NCBI GenBank assembly: GCA_018241765.1
Contig: JAFEDD010000004.1
Span: 162,314-195,652, forward strand
Reading direction: 5' to 3'
DNA length: 33,339 nucleotides
Source: Pseudomonadota bacterium
GTDB lineage: Bacteria > Pseudomonadota > Gammaproteobacteria > Burkholderiales > Casimicrobiaceae
Shown: one piece after another, positions 3,645-33,339 of the stretch
Numbering within the stretch: the stretch's first letter is position 1
How the letters are laid out: every line of letters starts with the position of its first letter
Position numbers and translations under genes: made by a program
The notes under the pieces: generated by a model
What the model saw: the letters and a program-made list of their open reading frames with translations, nothing else
Database searches by the model: none
Told to the model about the DNA's origin: nothing

Positions 3645-6464
3645 TCATGCGCTCGCGTAGTTCTCCAGTGACGGGCACGAGCACATGATGTTGCGATCGC
3701 CGTAGACGTCGTCGACGCGGCCCACGGGTGGCCAATACTTGTGCTCGCGCAGCGCGGCGAGCGGATAGGCCGCCTGTTCCCGGGTGTAGGCGTGGTCCCA
3801 CGCCTCGGTCAGCAGCGCCGCGGCGGTGTGCGGCGCATTGACCAGCGGATTGTCATCCTTCGGCCAGACGCCCGTCTCGACGGCGCGAATTTCCTCGCGA
3901 ATCGCGATCATGGCATCGATGAAGCGGTCGATCTCCACCTTGGGTTCGCTCTCGGTCGGCTCGATCATCAGCGTACCGGCCACCGGAAAGCTGACCGTCG
4001 GCGCGTGAAAGCCATAGTCCATCAACCGCTTGGCGACGTCCATGTTGCTGATGCCGCAACGCTCCTTGATCGGGCGAACGTCGACGATGCATTCGTGTGC
4101 GACGAACCCGCCATGACCGCTGTAGAGCATCGGGTAGTGCGGCGCCAGCTTTTTGGCGATGTAGTTGGCGTTGAGGATGGCCACGGCGGTTGCCTCACGC
4201 AGACCGTCGGCGCCCATCAGGCGGATGTACGCGTACGGAATCGGCAGGATGCTTGCGCTGCCAAACGGCGCGGCACTGACCGGCCCGACCTTGCCACGCC
4301 CGGGCAGGAACGGCGCGAGGTGCGCCTTGACGCCGATCGGACCGATGCCCGGCCCACCGCCGCCGTGCGGAATGCAGAACGTCTTGTGCAGGTTCATGTG
4401 GCTGACATCGGCACCGATCTCGGCGGGATAGCAGACGCCGACCTGCGCATTGAGGTTGGCGCCGTCCATGTAGACCTGTCCGCCGTGCTGGTGCACGATG
4501 GCGCAGATGTCCTTGATCGCCTCCTCGAAGACGCCGTGCGTCGAGGGGTAGGTGATCATCAACGCCGCGAGCCGCGCCGAATGCTGCTCGGCGGCGGCGC
4601 GCAGATCGGCGACATCGACGTTGCCGTCGGCATCGCACTTGGTGACGACCACTTCCATGCCGCACATCTGCGCGCTGGCCGGATTGGTGCCGTGCGCGCT
4701 GGCCGGAATCAGGCAGACGACGCGACCATGATCGCCGCGACTCTGGTGGTAGGCGCGAATGGCGAGCAGCCCCGCATATTCGCCCTGGGCGCCGCTGTTG
4801 GGTTGCAAGGACACGGCGTCGAAACCGGTGATGCGGCAGAGCATCGCCTCGAGGGCGCTGGTGAGCTCGGCGTAGCCACGTGCCTGTTCGGCCGGCACGA
4901 ACGGGTGCAGGTTGCCGAACTCCGGCCACGTGATGGGGATCATCTCCGTCGTGGCGTTGAGTTTCATGGTGCACGAGCCGAGCGGAATCATCGTGCGGTC
5001 GAGCGCGAGATCGCGGTCGGCGAGCCGACGCAGGTAGCGCAGCATTTCGGTTTCGCTGTGGTGCGTGTTGAACACCGGATGCGCCAGCACGTCACCATCG
5101 CGCTTCAGCCCCGCCGGAAGAGCGTCCGGCGCACTCGCGATGGTCGCCGGTGCCTGCACGCCGATTGCCGCACCGACGGCGAAGAGGACGGCGTCGACGT
5201 CGGCCTCGATGTGCGTTTCATCGAAGCTCACGCCAACGGCACCGAGGTCGGCGTAGTGCCGCAGGTTCATGCCGCCGTTGCGTGCCGTCGCGATGATCGC
5301 GGCGTGGGCGCCGTGCGTGAACGTAACGGTGTCGAAGAAGGCATCGGCGCCCGGTGCGATGCCCATCGCACGCAGGCCGCTCGCATAGCGCGTCGCGAGC
5401 GCATGAACGCGGCGGGCGATGGCGCGCAGCCCCTCGGGGCCGTGATAGACCGCGTACATGCCGGCGATGACCGCGAGCAGCACCTGCGCGGTGCAGATGT
5501 TGCTGGTGGCCTTTTCGCGGCGGATGTGTTGTTCGCGCGTCTGCAACGTGAGGCGATACGCCGGTTTGCCGTGCGCGTCGATGCTGACACCAACCAGCCG
5601 CCCCGGCATGTTGCGTTTGTAGGCGTCGCGCACGGCCATGTACGCAGCGTGCGGCCCGCCATAGCCCATCGGCACCCCGAAGCGCTGCGTGGAGCCGATC
5701 ACGATGTCGGCGCCCCACGCGCCGGGCGCCTTGAGCAGCATCAGCGCGAGCGGATCGGCCGCGCAGATGAAGAGCGCGCCCCTGGCGTGCGCCGCCTCGG
5801 CAAACGGTGCCAGGTCGTGAATCTGCCCGCTCGTCGAAGGGTATTGCGCGAGCACCGCGAAGTAGTCGCCTTCCTGCATCAATGCTGACAGCGACCCGAC
5901 CTTGACGACGATGCCCAGCGGCTCGGCGCGTTGCTTCAGCACGTCGATGGTTTGCGGATGGCAGTCGCTGGCGACGATGATGGTGTTGCTGTCGGCTTTC
6001 GCCTGACGCTTGGCGAGCGTCATCGCTTCGGCCGCCGCCGTGCCTTCGTCGAGCAGCGAGGCATTGGCGATGTCCATGCCGGTGAGGTCGGTGATCATCG
6101 TCTGATAGTTCAGCAGCGCTTCCAGCCGGCCTTGTGAAATTTCAGGCTGGTACGGTGTATAGGCCGTGTACCAGGCCGGGTTTTCCAGAATGTTGCGCAG
6201 GATGACCGGCGGCGTGATGGTGCCGGCATAGCCTTGGCCGATGAAGTTCCTGAACAGTTGGTTTTTCTGCGCCATCGAACGCAGTTCGGCCAACGTCTGC
6301 ACCTCGCTCAGACCGACGGGCAGCGGTAGCGGTTTGCTGCCGACGATGCTCGGCGGCACGGCTTGGCGCAGCAGATCGTCGAGCGAGGCGGCGCCGATCA
6401 GGCGCAACATGTCGCGTTGCTCGTCGTGGTTCGGGCCGATGTGGCGAGGCAGAAAATCAGACAT
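3645..6464 (-). CDS. gcvP: Glycine dehydrogenase (P protein of glycine cleavage system)
   Basis: A 939-residue homodimer-type P protein, the PLP enzyme that decarboxylates glycine and passes the aminomethyl group to the lipoyl arm of GcvH. The N-terminal half (about 1-430) and C-terminal half (about 450-939) are the two related aminotransferase-like domains. The PLP lysine is Lys694 in [20 protein letters not shown]. Other landmarks are [15 protein letters not shown] near residue 75 and [17 protein letters not shown] near 490. Length matches the one-chain P protein, so no gcvPA/gcvPB split. It is the last gene of the gcvT-gcvH-GNAT-gcvP operon, 96 bases after the GNAT gene, and would come under the riboswitch upstream of gcvT if transcription reads through. 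Confidence 0.97.
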
Positions 6465-6560
6465 GGTGCGGTCTCGGGTGAGGTATGGCGGATGCAGGCA
6501 TCCGGGGACAGGGGTGGCGCGGCGTGCCCGGGGCGACGCTTGGCAGCGCGCGCCGCGAAA

Positions 6561-7004
6561 TCAAAGCAGCTTGCGGTATTGCACGAAGCCGCTGCGTTCG
6601 GCGAGTTTGTTGTAGAGCACCATCGCTTCGGCGTTGGTCTCGTGCGTGAGCCAGTGCACGCGGTTGGCGCCATCGGCCTTGGCCCGCGCGCAGAGCGCCT
6701 CGATCAGCGCGCGTCCGACGCCGCGACCACGAACGCTTTCGTGCGTGAAGAGGTCTTGCAGGTAGCACGAGGACTCGGCACTCCAGCAGGAACGGTGGTA
6801 GATGCCGTGGGCAATGCCGAGCAGCCGCTCGCCCTCGAAGGCACCGAGCCCGAACATCGGCTCGCGCTCGTCGTGCAGACGCGCCCACGTGAGATCGAAC
6901 TGCGCCTGCGGCAGCGTGGTGCGGTAGAAGGCAAGATAGCTCTGCCACAGCGGTTGCCAGTCGGCACGATCGGCGAGCGTCAGCGGGCGAACGGTGAGAG
7001 CCAT
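6561..7004 (-). CDS. GNAT-family N-acetyltransferase inside the gcv operon
   Basis: A 147-residue single-domain GNAT protein. The acetyl-CoA pyrophosphate loop is RGRGVGRALIEALC at about residues 90-103, preceded by the beta-4 strand CYLQDLFTHES and followed by HWLTHETNAEAMVLYNKL, a typical GNAT motif B. The ATG at 7004 was chosen. A GTG at 7022, directly after the gcvH stop, would add six residues and has no better ribosome-binding site. The substrate is unknown. It sits between gcvH and gcvP on the same strand, so it is probably co-transcribed with glycine cleavage genes, but a direct link to glycine or lipoyl metabolism is speculation. This is not a usual member of the gcv operon. Confidence 0.85.
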   Translation of the reverse strand: MALTVRPLTLADRADWQPLWQSYLAFYRTTLPQAQFDLTWARLHDEREPMFGLGAFEGERLLGIAHGIYHRSCWSAESSCYLQDLFTHESVRGRGVGRALIEALCARAKADGANRVHWLTHETNAEAMVLYNKLAERSGFVQYRKLL

Positions 7005-28792: not shown

Positions 28793-28828
28793 GCCCCCCG
28801 CGCGGCATCCGCCCTCCTGCAACGCGTG

Positions 28829-29197
28829 ATGAGCGACATCGACATCCCCCCGCCGAAGTCGCGCAACGACCGCTGCCCCTGCGGCAGCGGGAAGCGCTAC
28901 AAGCACTGCCACGGTGCGCCGGCGTTGGCGACGACGCCGCGGTCTGGGGAAGCCAGCCCCGCCGAACCGAACGCGACGTACGCAACGACCGATCTGCCGC
29001 GGCTTATGGATGCGGCGCTTGCAGCGCAACGGGCCGATGATCTCGATGCCGCTGCGGATTTGTACGCTGCCGCCCTGGCGCTCGCCCCCGGCGAGCCCGA
29101 TTGCCTGCACATGCTGGGCGTCGTCCGGCTCTACCAGCATCGCCGTGCCGAGGCGCTCGCGTTGATCGAGCGCGCCGGTCGCTCGACCGGCTGGTAG
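28829..29197 (+). CDS. SEC-C motif and TPR protein, 5' part of an amber-interrupted frame
   Basis: A 122-residue protein ending at TAG (29195-29197). The N-terminus holds a SEC-C zinc motif (NDRCPCGSGKRYKHCHG, about 13-29). About 55-115 form two tetratricopeptide-like helical pairs (MDAALAAQRADDLDAAADLY, then PDCLHMLGVVRLYQHRRAEA). It stops in the middle of a TPR: the same frame continues as HGDYRHNYGYAISALLPGR, which is how TPR proteins of this kind normally go on. The ATG follows a GTG one codon earlier. The gene appears to be the 5' part of a longer SEC-C/TPR/glycosyltransferase gene broken by one stop codon. It may still make a short protein. Confidence 0.75.
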   Translation: MSDIDIPPPKSRNDRCPCGSGKRYKHCHGAPALATTPRSGEASPAEPNATYATTDLPRLMDAALAAQRADDLDAAADLYAAALALAPGEPDCLHMLGVVRLYQHRRAEALALIERAGRSTGW

Positions 29198-31171
29198 CAT
29201 GGCGACTACCGGCACAACTACGGCTACGCGATCAGCGCGCTGCTTCCCGGTCGCACGCCGCTGGCGGTGGACCGGCTCATCGCCTCGTCGCGAACGACTG
29301 GCGCGCCAATGCCTGACCCGCACACCGTCGCGCTGATCGTGATCGCCGATGGCGTCGTGCGCATTCCACCTCGGCCGGACGCTCGGTATACGCTGGCGCC
29401 ATCGCCCTTCGCTTCGGGCGAAGCGCACGCGATCGAGGTCGCGCGAGAGTGTCTGCGGCACGGCAAGGCATGGGGCTTCGGGGCCTTGCACGCAATGCCT
29501 TTCAGCGACCAAATCGGGCACATCAGTCAGTCGGCCCACCAACAGTTGGCGTTCAGCCGCAACCTGTCCCACGCGTTGTTCAACGCGCCGCTGGCACCCC
29601 TGGCGCTCGGCAATGTGGTACTGAGTGCGGCGGCGCTCGCCGCGCTCGCGGCGCGCCATGACAGCCGGTCGTTGACGCTGGGCGAGGTCGTGCTCGCCTT
29701 GCTGCGCGATCTCGAACCGCACTTTGCCGCGCAAGTTGGCGCCGTGGTGCCGGGCACGCGGCAACCACGCGTCGAGGCCGAGTTGAGCGCCGGTGCGCGG
29801 CGACTTCCCGCCGCGTTCGATACGTACCTGCACGCCGCGCTGGCGCCGCTGACGTCGGCGGCCGACCGATTCGGAAATCCGCTCGCGCCGAGGCTGTCGT
29901 TGTACGGCCCCGGTTTCATCAAGCGAATGCTTCGTGCGGGCAATGGCCGCCATCTCTCCGGCGAGCGCCTGGAAGCGCTCGCCGCGCTGGCGCAGACGGT
30001 GCCGCAACCGGCCGCCAACGCGACGAAGAGCCCCCTGCGCACCGACGGCTTCGATCTGATCGGGTTTGCCCGAACCGAGAGCGGGCTCGGCGAAAACGTC
30101 CGGGCGCTGGCGCGCACCTGCGAAGCGGCGGGCATCCCCGTCAGCGTGTCGGACGTCGATATCGATACCGGTACCCGCAAGGAAGACGATGACGTCGTCC
30201 ATCTGCTCGTCGATGAGCCGAAATTCGCCTTCAGCATCATCTGTACCAACCCGGACGTGCTGGCGGAGGCAATCCACCACGACGGCGTCGGCGCCTCGCG
30301 CGGCATCCGGCGTATTGGCTACTGGGCGTGGGAGCTCGACGAGCTGCCGCCGGCGTGGCGTCGCGCCGCGCCGCTGCTCGACGAAATCTGGACGCCCTCC
30401 GAATTCGTCACCAACGCCGTTCGCCGCAGCACGCAGGCACTTGCCTACACGGTCCCCACTCCGATTCGCGCGCCGCGCTCGACGCTGCCGCCGCAGCGCG
30501 CCGCGTTCGGACTTGGCCTCGATCAGCACGTCTTTTTGTTCAGCTTTGCATACGGCTCGTTTGCGACGCGAAAGAACCCGTGGGCCGTCATTCGCGCATT
30601 TCGAGCCGCCTTTGCGAACGGAGACGAGCCAGTTCAACTGGTCATCAAAACCACACAGGCAAACGCGTTCACCGACATGGCCCGCGATCTGCACGCGCTC
30701 GCCGCGGGCGATGCTCGCATCGTGTTCATCGAACGCTTCCTGAGTCGCGCCGAGGTCAGCGCGTTGCAGCTGTGCAGCGACACCTTCGTCTCGCTGCATC
30801 GTTCCGAGGGTTTCGGCGTGGGCATGGCCGAGATGATGGCGGCAGGCAAATCGGTCATCGGCATCGCATGGTCGGGCAACCTCGACTTCACGACCGGCGA
30901 CAACAGCGTGCTCGTCCCCTATCGGCTGATACCTCTGACCGCGAATGACTACGTCTGGCATAGCGGCCAGGTGTGGGCGGACGCCAGCGTCGAGGCGGCT
31001 GCGGATGCCATGCGCCGCCTCGCCTTCGACCGTGCATTCGGGGTTCGGCGTGGCGATCGAGCGGCGCTCGACATGGCACACCGCTACGGCGAAGCCGCGA
31101 TCGCCGAGAAGCTGCGCGAACACCTGGCGCGACTCGCCGCCACCGTGCGCGCTGGCGCCGCGCCGACGTGA
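29198..31171 (+). CDS. GT-B glycosyltransferase, 3' part of an amber-interrupted frame
   Basis: 657 open codons continue directly, in the same frame, from the upstream stop. Possible separate starts are GTG at 29267 and ATG at 29309, neither with a convincing ribosome-binding site. The N-terminal ~270 residues are unassigned. The C-terminal half is a GT4-like GT-B glycosyltransferase: DLIGFARTESGLGENVRALA, GYWAWELDELPPAW, IWTPSEFVTNAVR, then FLFSFAYGSFATRKNPWAVI and the nucleotide-sugar-binding SEGFGVGMAEMMAAGKSVIG, with the usual Glu residues. Donor and acceptor are unknown. Whether it is made as a separate protein, by stop-codon readthrough, or is a broken gene cannot be told from sequence. 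Confidence 0.75.
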   Translation, partial: HGDYRHNYGYAISALLPGRTPLAVDRLIASSRTTGAPMPDPHTVALIVIADGVVRIPPRPDARYTLAPSPFASGEAHAIEVARECLRHGKAWGFGALHAMPFSDQIGHISQSAHQQLAFSRNLSHALFNAPLAPLALGNVVLSAAALAALAARHDSRSLTLGEVVLALLRDLEPHFAAQVGAVVPGTRQPRVEAELSAGARRLPAAFDTYLHAALAPLTSAADRFGNPLAPRLSLYGPGFIKRMLRAGNGRHLSGERLEALAALAQTVPQPAANATKSPLRTDGFDLIGFARTESGLGENVRALARTCEAAGIPVSVSDVDIDTGTRKEDDDVVHLLVDEPKFAFSIICTNPDVLAEAIHHDGVGASRGIRRIGYWAWELDELPPAWRRAAPLLDEIWTPSEFVTNAVRRSTQALAYTVPTPIRAPRSTLPPQRAAFGLGLDQHVFLFSFAYGSFATRKNPWAVIRAFRAAFANGDEPVQLVIKTTQANAFTDMARDLHALAAGDARIVFIERFLSRAEVSALQLCSDTFVSLHRSEGFGVGMAEMMAAGKSVIGIAWSGNLDFTTGDNSVLVPYRLIPLTANDYVWHSGQVWADASVEAAADAMRRLAFDRAFGVRRGDRAALDMAHRYGEAAIAEKLREHLARLAATVRAGAAPT

Positions 31172-31214: not shown

Positions 31215-32063
31215 ATGCGGTTCCACAAATACCACGCCCTCGGCAACGACTATCTGGTGATCGACCCGCAGGATTGGCCTTCGGAATTCAGCGCGGCGGA
31301 GATTCGGCGCATCTGCCACCCGCACTACGGCGTCGGCTCCGATGGCATCGTGTGGGGGCCGTTGCCGGCCGTGGGTGATGTCCCGTTCGCGCTGCGCATC
31401 TTCAATCCCGATGGCAGCGAAGCACAGAAAAGCGGCAACGGCCTGCGCATCTTTTGCCGCTATTTGTTCGATGGCCGGCGCGTCACCACCGAACCCTTTC
31501 GCCTGCACACCCGAGGCGGCGTGGTGACGGCGCGCGTCTTCGATGGCGGACGCCAGGTGACGGTCGAGATGGGCCGCGTGAGCTTTGCCGCCTCCGCCGT
31601 TCCGGTGCTCGGCCCGCCGCGCGAAGTCATTCGCGAAACGCTCCACGTCGGCGATGAGGCGATCACCTTCACCAGTGCGTCGATCGGCAACCCGCATTGC
31701 GTCGTCGAGCGACCCGGCACGACGACGGCGGACGTGCATCGACTCGGGCCGTCGATCGAGCGGCACCCGAACTTCCCCGAGCGCACCAACGTGCAGTTCC
31801 TGAGCGTGCGCGACCGTGCCAACATCGCCATCGAAATCTGGGAGCGCGGCGCCGGCTACACGCTGGCCTCGGGCTCCAGTGCGAGCGCGGCGGCCGCCGT
31901 CGCGCACCGTCTCGGTCTCGTCGATGCGAACGTCACCGTGCACATGCCCGGTGGACGCATCGCCATCGACATCGATGAACACTTCGGCATCACGATGACC
32001 GGGCCGGTCACGCGCATTGCCGACGGGCGGCTGGCGCCCGAAATGTTGGAGGATCTGGCATGA
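31215..32063 (+). CDS. Diaminopimelate epimerase family protein lacking both catalytic cysteines
   Basis: A 282-residue protein with the full DapF fold and length, beginning MRFHKYHALGNDYLVIDP and containing the usual PDGSEAQKSGNGLRIF and WERGAGYTLASGSS blocks. In classical DapF (numbered as in Haemophilus influenzae) Cys73 and Cys217 act as the two acid/base residues. The aligned residues here are Ser73 (SGNG instead of CGNG) and Ser219 (SGSS instead of CGTG). The residue aligned with the substrate-binding Glu of GAGET is Tyr215. The only nearby Cys, Cys81, is not at a catalytic position. It overlaps DUF484 by 4 bases (ATGA) and is followed by xerC, the normal dapF locus. Epimerase activity is therefore doubtful or altered. 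Confidence 0.88.
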   Translation: MRFHKYHALGNDYLVIDPQDWPSEFSAAEIRRICHPHYGVGSDGIVWGPLPAVGDVPFALRIFNPDGSEAQKSGNGLRIFCRYLFDGRRVTTEPFRLHTRGGVVTARVFDGGRQVTVEMGRVSFAASAVPVLGPPREVIRETLHVGDEAITFTSASIGNPHCVVERPGTTTADVHRLGPSIERHPNFPERTNVQFLSVRDRANIAIEIWERGAGYTLASGSSASAAAAVAHRLGLVDANVTVHMPGGRIAIDIDEHFGITMTGPVTRIADGRLAPEMLEDLA

Positions 32064-32752
32064 ATCCGTTGACCCCGCTCGACGGCGCCGATGTCGCCGC
32101 CTGGCTCAAGGCAAACCCGGACTTTTTCATGGATTACGGCGAGGTGTTCTCGTCGATGCGCATTCCGCATCCGCAGGGCGGGCACGCCATCTCGATGGTC
32201 GAGCGGCAGCTCATCTCGCTGCGCGAACGCAACGCGCAGCTCGAGCGGCAGTTGCTGGAACTGATCGGCTTCGGCCAACACAACGACGGGCTGATCGAGA
32301 AGCTGCATCGGCTGACGCTCGCGCTGTTTCGTGCGCCCGATGCGGCGCTGACGCTCGCGGTCGTCGAGGAGAGTCTGCGCAGCGACTTTGCCGTGCCCTT
32401 CAGCGCCGTGCGGTGGTGGGGCGGCGCACTCGGTGACCACCGGCTCGAAGCAACACTCGCCTGCTCGACCGAGCTGCGCGACTATGTGGGTGGCCTCGAT
32501 CGGCCTTATGTGGGGCCGAACAGCGCGCACGAGTCGCGCACGTGGCTTGGCGCCGGCGGCGCTGATGCGCGCTCGTTCGCCTATGTGCCCTTGCTCGATG
32601 GCGCAGTGACCGGTGTGCTGATGCTGGCGAGCGAGGACGGCGGTCGCTTCACGCCCGACATGGCAACCGACGTGCTGACCCGGCTCGCGCAGCTGACCAG
32701 CGCGGCGCTGGGCCGCTTCGCGCGGCACGATTTCGAACCCGACGTGGCCTGA
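32060..32752 (+). CDS. DUF484 family protein (YigA-like)
   Basis: A 230-residue protein of the DUF484 family, which has a GAF-like fold. The N-terminal part (VAAWLKANPDFFMDYGEVFS, then IPHPQGGHAISMVERQL) and the short coiled segment (LRERNAQLERQLLELIGFGQ) are diagnostic. The C-terminal part (FAYVPLLDGAVTGVLMLAS, then ALGRFARHDFEPDV) fits the rest. The ATG overlaps the dapF-family stop (ATGA), so the two are translationally coupled. The dapF-DUF484-xerC order is widely conserved in proteobacteria. Function is unknown. Confidence 0.92.
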   Translation: MNPLTPLDGADVAAWLKANPDFFMDYGEVFSSMRIPHPQGGHAISMVERQLISLRERNAQLERQLLELIGFGQHNDGLIEKLHRLTLALFRAPDAALTLAVVEESLRSDFAVPFSAVRWWGGALGDHRLEATLACSTELRDYVGGLDRPYVGPNSAHESRTWLGAGGADARSFAYVPLLDGAVTGVLMLASEDGGRFTPDMATDVLTRLAQLTSAALGRFARHDFEPDVA

Positions 32753-32785: not shown

Positions 32786-33339
32786 ATGGACGACACGCCA
32801 CACCCCGCGCTCGATAGCTTCGCCGCGAGCCTGCGGGCGCGCGGTTCCGCCCAGACCGAGGCGCGTTATCTGCGCGCCTGCCACGCGTTGCTGGCCGAAA
32901 TCGGTGACACGCCGCTGGCGCAGCTCGATCGTCACCTGCTCCAGCGCGCGCTGGCGCGACTGCATGCGCGCGGCTGGTCGCCGCGCACGCTGGCGGTGAC
33001 GCTGTCGGCATGGCGAAGCTGGTTTCGCCATCTTGCCAAGAGCGATGCGACGATACGGCCGGCGATCTTTGCCGGCATCAAGGCACCGCGTGCCGTGCGA
33101 CGCTTGCCGAACGCGCTGACCGAGGCCGAGGCGGTGCGACTGGTCACCCCACCGACGACGTCAGCGGCGCCATCGCTGGCACGCGCTGCCTGCGATCAGG
33201 CGATGTTCGAAGTGCTCTATGGCTGCGGCATTCGCATCGGAGAGTTGGTGGCGCTCGATCTGCGGCACGCCGACCTCGCCGCGCGTGAGCTGCGCGTTTT
33301 CGGCAAGGGTCGCAAGGAGCGCGTGGTGCCGCTCGGCAC
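32786..33339 (+). CDS. xerC: Tyrosine recombinase XerC, 5' part (cut by window end)
   Basis: About 184 residues are visible, running off the right edge. The N-terminal SAM-like core-binding domain is at about 8-90 (LDSFAASLRARGSAQTEARY, then LARLHARGWSPRTLAVTLSA). The catalytic domain begins about residue 110 (LPNALTEAEAVRLV) and contains the first catalytic arginine in LYGCGIRIGELVALDL and the beta-sheet lysine region FGKGRKERVVPLG. The His-x-x-Arg and Tyr residues are beyond the window. XerC acts with XerD at dif to resolve chromosome dimers. The position after dapF-DUF484 is the standard one, which separates it from integron or phage recombinases. Confidence 0.93.
   Translation, partial: MDDTPHPALDSFAASLRARGSAQTEARYLRACHALLAEIGDTPLAQLDRHLLQRALARLHARGWSPRTLAVTLSAWRSWFRHLAKSDATIRPAIFAGIKAPRAVRRLPNALTEAEAVRLVTPPTTSAAPSLARAACDQAMFEVLYGCGIRIGELVALDLRHADLAARELRVFGKGRKERVVPLG

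Follow-up and report, generated by a model that had tools for sequence, protein, structure and literature searches.

A gene of a Casimicrobiaceae bacterium encodes a protein that by sequence is a member of the diaminopimelate epimerase (DapF) family without the two cysteines that define it. Serine stands at both catalytic positions (Ser73 and Ser219; hereafter Ser/Ser, as opposed to the classical Cys/Cys). The gene lies in a 33,339-nucleotide stretch of DNA, referred to as the window. Going by sequence and gene context, this protein is probably the cell's working diaminopimelate (DAP) epimerase, which would convert LL-DAP to meso-DAP with Ser/Ser in place of the two-thiol pair. We infer DAP epimerisation from the absence of mixed pairs among the sequences collected, a single clade, serine codon switches, the native place of the gene, retained DAP contacts, a single DapF without meso-DAP dehydrogenase (Ddh), and the row of genes around a Ser/Ser copy in another genome (locus L236). 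A broader proposal is that these proteins form a natural, thiol-free class of amino-acid epimerases with a single origin. In it, Ser73 and Ser219 would epimerise DAP by a two-base mechanism at physiologically useful rates, with Lys72, Gln194 and Ser222 adjusting their reactivity, and the class would have ousted the thiol enzyme from its native locus following horizontal transfer. To this proposal we give an even chance.

Sequence and residues of the Ser/Ser type

The translation of 31215-32063 includes the segments EAQKSGNGLRI and WERGAGYTLASGSSASA, in which KSGNG spans residues 72-76 and LASGSS residues 217-222 (Table 1). The protein matches the DapF profile TIGR00652 with 228.8 bits (E 7.8e-68; cut-off 114.65), residues 1-273 covering profile positions 1-268 of 270, and PF01678 with 173.4 bits (cut-off 34.7). 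A phmmer search of the PDB at E<=0.001 returned 17 distinct sequences, all of them diaminopimelate epimerases except one O-ureidoserine racemase. In two phmmer alignments Ser73 and Ser219 fall on the catalytic Cys columns of solved DapFs, which, with the DNA read directly, bears out the first-pass annotation in its claim that both catalytic cysteines are replaced by serine. The protein therefore falls outside classical DAP epimerases as defined by two cysteines. The PROSITE DapF signature, quoted in PMC8225329 as N-x-[DN]-[GS]-[SENGFT]-x(4)-C-[GI]-N-[GA]-x-R, fits it, as judged by eye, at every position except the Cys. Against NF038284, the model for bifunctional DapF/glutamate racemases, the protein reaches 55 bits where the cut-off is 350. 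Ser/Ser-type sequences presumably already carry the DapF annotation in public databases, which would be consistent with the TIGR00652 scores.

Table 1. Features of the dapF locus, with positions in the window
Feature	Position	Strand	Basis
Ser/Ser-type DapF homologue, 282 aa	31215..32063	+	TIGR00652, PF01678, AlphaFold model
Lys72 codon AAA	31428..31430	+	In 116/116 Ser/Ser, 0/77 Cys/Cys
Ser73 codon AGC, replacing catalytic Cys 1	31431..31433	+	DNA read, translation, alignment
Gln194 codon	31794..31796	+	In 116/116 Ser/Ser, 0/77 Cys/Cys
Ser219 codon TCG, replacing catalytic Cys 2	31869..31871	+	DNA read, translation, alignment
Ser222 codon AGT, replacing Gly near Cys 2	31878..31880	+	Ser in 116/116 Ser/Ser; Gly in 77/77 Cys/Cys
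DUF484 gene, overlaps dapF stop	32060..32752	+	PF04340, 95.4 bits
xerC-like tyrosine recombinase, runs off window	32786..33337	+	PF00589 and PF02899

All loci collected (230 rows) were condensed to 194 distinct DapF-family sequences. Of these, 116 are Ser/Ser (the window's included), 77 are Cys/Cys, one is a truncated copy and none has a mixed pair. Mixed pairs may exist elsewhere, since loci were picked for their resemblance to Ser/Ser proteins and the catalytic pair was read in only part of the weaker matches (26 of 92 lower-scoring Verrucomicrobiota genomes, 30 of 73 matched Planctomycetota and seven of 16 order-level relatives). Five positions separate the two types completely, namely Lys72, Ser73, Gln194, Ser219 and Ser222. 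The weight first placed on Tyr215, in place of the Glu of the GAGET motif, did not hold. Tyr is found there in 113 of 116 Ser/Ser and none of 77 Cys/Cys proteins, but Tyr215 was rejected as the key change because two Ser/Ser proteins have Glu (a third has Phe) and the canonical Anabaena DapF has Ile.

Across the 116 distinct Ser/Ser nucleotide sequences, position 73 is encoded by all six serine codons (TCC, AGC, TCG, AGT, TCT and TCA) and position 219 by all four of the TCN type (TCG, TCC, TCA and TCT). At least four switches between AGY and TCN at position 73 were counted on a tree of 58 Ser/Ser rows. This variety, together with the switches, shows that serine itself is being retained. The single clade, the codon switches and the 116 Ser/Ser sequences lend strong support to the view that this divergent subfamily is maintained and is not decaying. 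Sequencing error or decay was rejected, given two different serine codons and the same pair in 15 of the 16 other sampled congeners.

It could also be that the catalytic thiols have moved, with Cys34 and Cys162 (which adjoins His161) serving as acid and base. Each is present in 115 of the 116 Ser/Ser proteins, the exceptions being a gap at position 34 and a Phe at position 162, the latter itself an argument against relocation. Both residues are found in Cys/Cys enzymes as well (30 and 19 of 77, respectively), Anabaena DapF has the two in addition to its catalytic pair, and Cys162 follows His161 in a strand of the model, where its side chain should face away from the pocket. We rejected relocation, chiefly on this co-occurrence with the catalytic pair, and regard it as very improbable.

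Genomic place, distribution and phylogeny

The dapF-DUF484-xerC neighbourhood described at first reading was recovered, both by the Pfam matches in the window and by synteny within the family. DUF484 lies 3' of dapF at all 17 Ser/Ser loci (L003-L019) and all six Cys/Cys loci of the family, and xerC is present at 16 of the 17 and five of the six. A place shared by Ser/Ser and Cys/Cys genes is the pattern expected if a transferred Ser/Ser gene replaced the Cys/Cys gene in situ; we infer the direction of transfer from the distribution. Contamination or misassembly could have placed a foreign dapF in the bin, and Verrucomicrobiota do account for many of the closest loci from other genera. Such an artefact is scarcely credible, however, because 15 of the 16 other sampled congeners carry a Ser/Ser dapF, among them the single-contig genome G005, and DUF484 is next to it, on the 3' side, in all 15.

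Three further observations concern these genomes. In G015 a second, degenerate Ser/Ser dapF with stops and pieces in three frames (L214, G015:C19:84000-92000, minus strand, ~6224-6899) lies about 3.7 kb from the intact copy, and G008 has an extra dapF fragment corresponding to residues 1-52. In the window, a small ORF (28826-29197) with a CPCGSGKRYKHCHG motif, which we take to be SEC-C-like, ends shortly 5' of a glycosyltransferase-like gene (29267-31171).

The window's dapF has an end branch of 0.33 on the tree, against 0.10-0.15 for its nearest congeners. Compared with the gene of G005, it is the most distant of nine congeners (77.1%; the others 77.5-88.2%), whereas its DUF484 is the second closest among congeners (80.9%). 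The expectation that this dapF would show no more divergence than the adjacent gene did not hold. The protein departs at five of 105 positions conserved in the Ser/Ser set, none of them catalytic or in contact with DAP; 61 of the 116 Ser/Ser proteins show no such departure, and other family members show 0-6. The window's copy evolves somewhat fast, to a mild degree that leaves some room for relaxed function in this genome.

A contig scan yielded 162 stretches encoding relatives, and the best 80 of these are all Ser/Ser. By title, these 80 loci belong mostly to Opitutae, Opitutaceae and other Verrucomicrobiota or similar groups, the remainder being mainly Burkholderiales or Betaproteobacteria (one Casimicrobiaceae), with two Planctomycetota/Planctomycetes and one BRC1. 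Phylum surveys were run at differing E-value limits. Matches at E<=1e-10 occur in 115 of 125 Verrucomicrobiota genomes, and their scores fall into two well-separated groups. The 23 genomes scoring >=327 bits are all Ser/Ser; the other 92 score <=228 bits, and the 26 of them that were read are all Cys/Cys. In Planctomycetota, 73 of 109 genomes match at E<=1e-40, and the 30 read comprise four Ser/Ser and 26 Cys/Cys; in Sumerlaeota the 12 matches among 40 genomes (E<=1e-30) comprise one Ser/Ser and 11 Cys/Cys. Only eight of 398 genomes of the window's own phylum match at E<=1e-72, the window's included, and all are Ser/Ser. Six of the others are of the window's class, presumably Gammaproteobacteria in GTDB terms, and one (G660) is of another class. 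By these counts Verrucomicrobiota often carry the Ser/Ser type, which is rare elsewhere in the survey. Within the window's genus it was found in 16 of 17 sampled genomes, the one miss being G014, which is 80% complete. Elsewhere in the family Casimicrobiaceae, G022 is Ser/Ser and the other six genomes examined are Cys/Cys.

A quick maximum-likelihood tree of 93 rows, in which the root was not inferred, the catalytic columns were included and support was by SH-aLRT only, recovers the 58 Ser/Ser rows as a single clade (SH-aLRT 99) and requires one state change. The window's genus forms one subclade of 14 rows (support 100). G022, of another genus in the same family, is placed elsewhere within the Ser/Ser clade at a fork with support 84, which hints weakly at a second transfer. 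Spread on plasmids was rejected. When the Ser/Ser copy of G610 was compared by tblastn with 72,556 plasmid records, 117 records matched, all below 60% identity, and the top identity among the best 15 of the 117 was 37.0%.

Separately, the high-scoring Verrucomicrobiota genome G167 encodes a Ser/Ser DapF and a second, DapF-like Cys/Cys protein (L213, G167:C156:16592-17266). The latter has altered DAP-contact positions (Glu at 64, Val at 159 and Phe at 211) and is perhaps a racemase for another substrate.

The diaminopimelate pathway and gene neighbourhoods

Two checks proposed in the first-pass annotation, for a second dapF and for a ddh route, were run on the window's genome (3.24 Mb, 90% complete, 76 contigs). 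A single DapF gene was detected with TIGR00652. The only other match scores 11.8 bits (E 0.184), on which ground a hidden second DapF was rejected, with the reservation that in a genome of this completeness and contig number a second gene could be missed. The genes lysA, dapD and murE were found, and LysA needs meso-DAP. Ddh was found in none of the 15 same-genus genomes searched, this draft genome included. In same-genus genomes, the window's own included, lysA was detected in 13 of 15, dapD in 10 of 11 and murE in 11 of 11, and no Cys/Cys DapF was found beside the Ser/Ser one at E<=0.001 in the other genomes of the genus. Outside the genus, all 16 Ser/Ser genomes searched have one DapF at E<=0.001 (their completeness is not given), and Ddh scores above its cut-off in two of 29.

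A neighbourhood tied to the pathway is that of G660 (L236; genome of 1.3 Mb, 100% complete), where dapB, dapA, the Ser/Ser dapF and an aminotransferase gene stand in a row and lysA and an aspartate kinase gene adjoin on the other strand. NCBIfam models for lysA, dapB, dapA, DapF and an aspartate-kinase subfamily all score above their cut-offs. The aminotransferase matches LL-DAP aminotransferase models best, below their cut-offs (401.2 against 507 and 384 against 593.25), and is accordingly termed dapL-like.

None of the six same-class Ser/Ser copies lies within a dap cluster. That of G388 is near a glyoxylate carboligase gene, which scores above its cut-off, and a glycerate-kinase-like gene, which falls short of its own, and ORFs resembling these neighbours, by eye, are nearby in G384 and G471. 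In G483 (L234, 8599-13157) dapF adjoins genes like those for anthranilate/aminodeoxychorismate synthase components I and II, at a locus that also has a gene resembling AraC-type regulators and an ORF unmatched in NCBIfam at E<=1e-10. The G696 copy is near an aromatic-acid transporter-like gene, and that of G610 (L237, 36-10423) lies at the end of a series of same-strand ORFs, among them those for an amino-acid adenylation protein and an MFS efflux-like protein, a possible secondary-metabolite cluster. These six copies could be accessory isozymes or have different substrates, though they too retain the DAP-contact residues. A Pfam search of ten ORFs beside three Verrucomicrobiota copies (L045, L109 and L138) found no dap gene, and clustering of neighbours over the 80 loci was confounded by opposite-strand frames. 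Given the copies outside dap clusters and the three Verrucomicrobiota loci, the clade may not be isofunctional.

These neighbourhoods bear on the possibility that the window protein has the DapF fold but racemises or epimerises some other substrate, like HisR and PddB, with serine sufficing because the alpha hydrogen is more acidic. The adenylation-domain protein, the anthranilate-synthase-like genes and other accessory genes near same-class copies are in its favour, as is the precedent of proteins annotated DapF that proved active on histidine or diaminobutyrate (PMC11602996, PMC8225329). Against it, all 116 Ser/Ser proteins retain the residues for DAP's distal carboxylate and amine, no further DapF was found in the window's genome, a dapA-dapF-dapL-like row stands in L236, and in the window's family the Ser/Ser gene lies where sister genera have the Cys/Cys gene. 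We judge a different substrate unlikely here. The first-pass annotation had offered an altered mechanism, a different substrate or a non-epimerase role. Altered mechanism is the best supported of the three, and the other two are disfavoured for the window locus by the retained DAP contacts, the lack of a second DapF and of Ddh, and the dapA and dapL-like flanks in L236.

Active site, proposed mechanism and known systems

An AlphaFold model of the window protein has a mean pLDDT of 94.4 and the DapF fold, with helices 74-86 and 220-232 beginning directly after Ser73 and Ser219; the catalytic cysteines of Anabaena DapF occupy equivalent helix-start positions (PMC12039745). The 18 best PDB matches by Foldseek are all DapF. 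The highest TM score (by query length) among the matches listed is 0.92, at 35% identity, to the closed, inhibitor-bound Anabaena enzyme (9mro); 4ijz and 1gqz score 0.82-0.86, and 5m47, the C. glutamicum enzyme, scores only 0.77 although it too is closed.

Cysteines apart, the window protein has the full set of DAP-contact residues (Asn11, Asn64, Asn75, Asn159, Asn192, Glu210, Arg211 and Ser221). Asn64, Asn75, Asn159, Asn192, Glu210 and Arg211 occur in 116 of 116 Ser/Ser proteins, Asn11 in 115 with one gap, and position 221, a Thr in Anabaena DapF, is Ser or Thr in all 116 (Ser in 110). Their equivalents in Anabaena DapF touch the DAP analogue, and the Gly at the Ser222 position has its backbone NH near Cys 2 (PMC12039745). 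Alanine mutants of C. glutamicum DapF at what are presumed, by motif only, to be the same residues are nearly dead (PMC5296763).

Single-cysteine mutants of DapF relatives are reported as nearly dead or greatly reduced (PMC8225329, PMC5296763, PMC11602996). PddB C101A and C233S and a cited Cys-to-Ser mutant of Mt-DapF retain less than 0.1% activity (PMC8225329), and Cys-to-Ser changes are used in DapF work because they hinder catalysis (PMC12039745). A Ser/Ser enzyme should thus be very slow unless compensated, and from the sequences Lys72, Gln194 and Ser222 are the candidates for that compensation. We propose that the Ser/Ser protein epimerises LL-DAP to meso-DAP for lysine and peptidoglycan. 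Less certainly, Ser73 and Ser219, which immediately precede helices, would act as acid and base from the two sides of the alpha carbon, while Lys72, Gln194 and Ser222 might activate the hydroxyls sufficiently or stabilise the carbanion. A disulfide can join the catalytic cysteines in the DapFs of C. glutamicum and H. influenzae (PMC5296763). A thiol-free site could not form one, which, speculatively, might explain the horizontal spread of the gene.

The loss of both thiols, set beside the low activity of single-Cys mutants, could signal a dead epimerase kept for a structural or partner-binding role, with meso-DAP supplied by an unrecognised enzyme or LL-DAP tolerated. E. coli DapF binds RppH, RppH-DapF complexes have been solved (PDB 6d13 and 6vck), and the window's copy evolves somewhat faster than those of its congeners. 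Yet a dead enzyme need not keep a DAP pocket and fixed Lys72, Gln194 and Ser222 across several phyla, nor replace the native gene or sit between dapA and a dapL-like gene, and the meso-DAP requirement of LysA is a further objection. We consider a dead enzyme quite improbable.

DapF is a standard case of a Cys thiolate (pKa ~8.5) that deprotonates an amino-acid alpha carbon (pKa ~29) (PMC12039745). If the window protein is indeed a working thiol-free epimerase, cysteine would be dispensable for cofactor-independent alpha-carbon deprotonation of amino acids in the DapF fold, and a natural Ser/Ser enzyme would be a ready-made test of thiolate theory and a challenge to the textbook chemistry of the enzyme class. 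D-amino-acid chemistry would also gain an enzyme insensitive to redox conditions, and bacteria with a Ser/Ser DapF should, we suggest, escape covalent DapF inhibitors directed at thiols. Should the protein prove inactive or act on another substrate, automatic DapF annotations of the Ser/Ser type would need revising. No description of a natural Ser/Ser DapF was found in an open-access library, a scope outside which most subscription-journal papers fall.

With classical DapF (9mro from Anabaena, 1gqz from H. influenzae and 5m47 from C. glutamicum) the Ser/Ser protein has the fold, profile, DAP contacts and genomic place in common. It differs in both Cys-to-Ser changes, Ser222 for Gly, fixed Lys72 and Gln194 and, usually, Tyr215. 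H. influenzae DapF C73S and C217S (PDB 2q9h and 2q9j; fold-search ranks 6 and 14) are laboratory single mutants with one substitution each, whereas in the Ser/Ser type both changes occur naturally, accompanied by Lys72, Gln194 and Ser222. O-ureidoserine racemase (7vdy), which keeps the Cys pair, shares the DapF fold with HisR, CntK and PddB, and some of these proteins were first annotated as DapF. HisR and CntK (PMC11602996) and PddB (PMC8225329) keep the Cys pair and act on other substrates, while the Ser/Ser type has lost the cysteines and kept the DAP pocket. In the bifunctional DapF/glutamate racemase the cysteines are conserved and needed and the pocket is remodelled (PMC5885031). That enzyme (NF038284, Chlamydia) is a DapF relative from the Planctomycetes-Verrucomicrobia-Chlamydiae group. 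The aspartate/glutamate racemase Ecl-DER is of a different structural subclass from DapF. It has Thr for one catalytic Cys, a natural departure in a cofactor-independent racemase, and is distinguished from Ser/Ser DapF by the change of a single residue and by its one-way conversion of Asp (PMC8142540).
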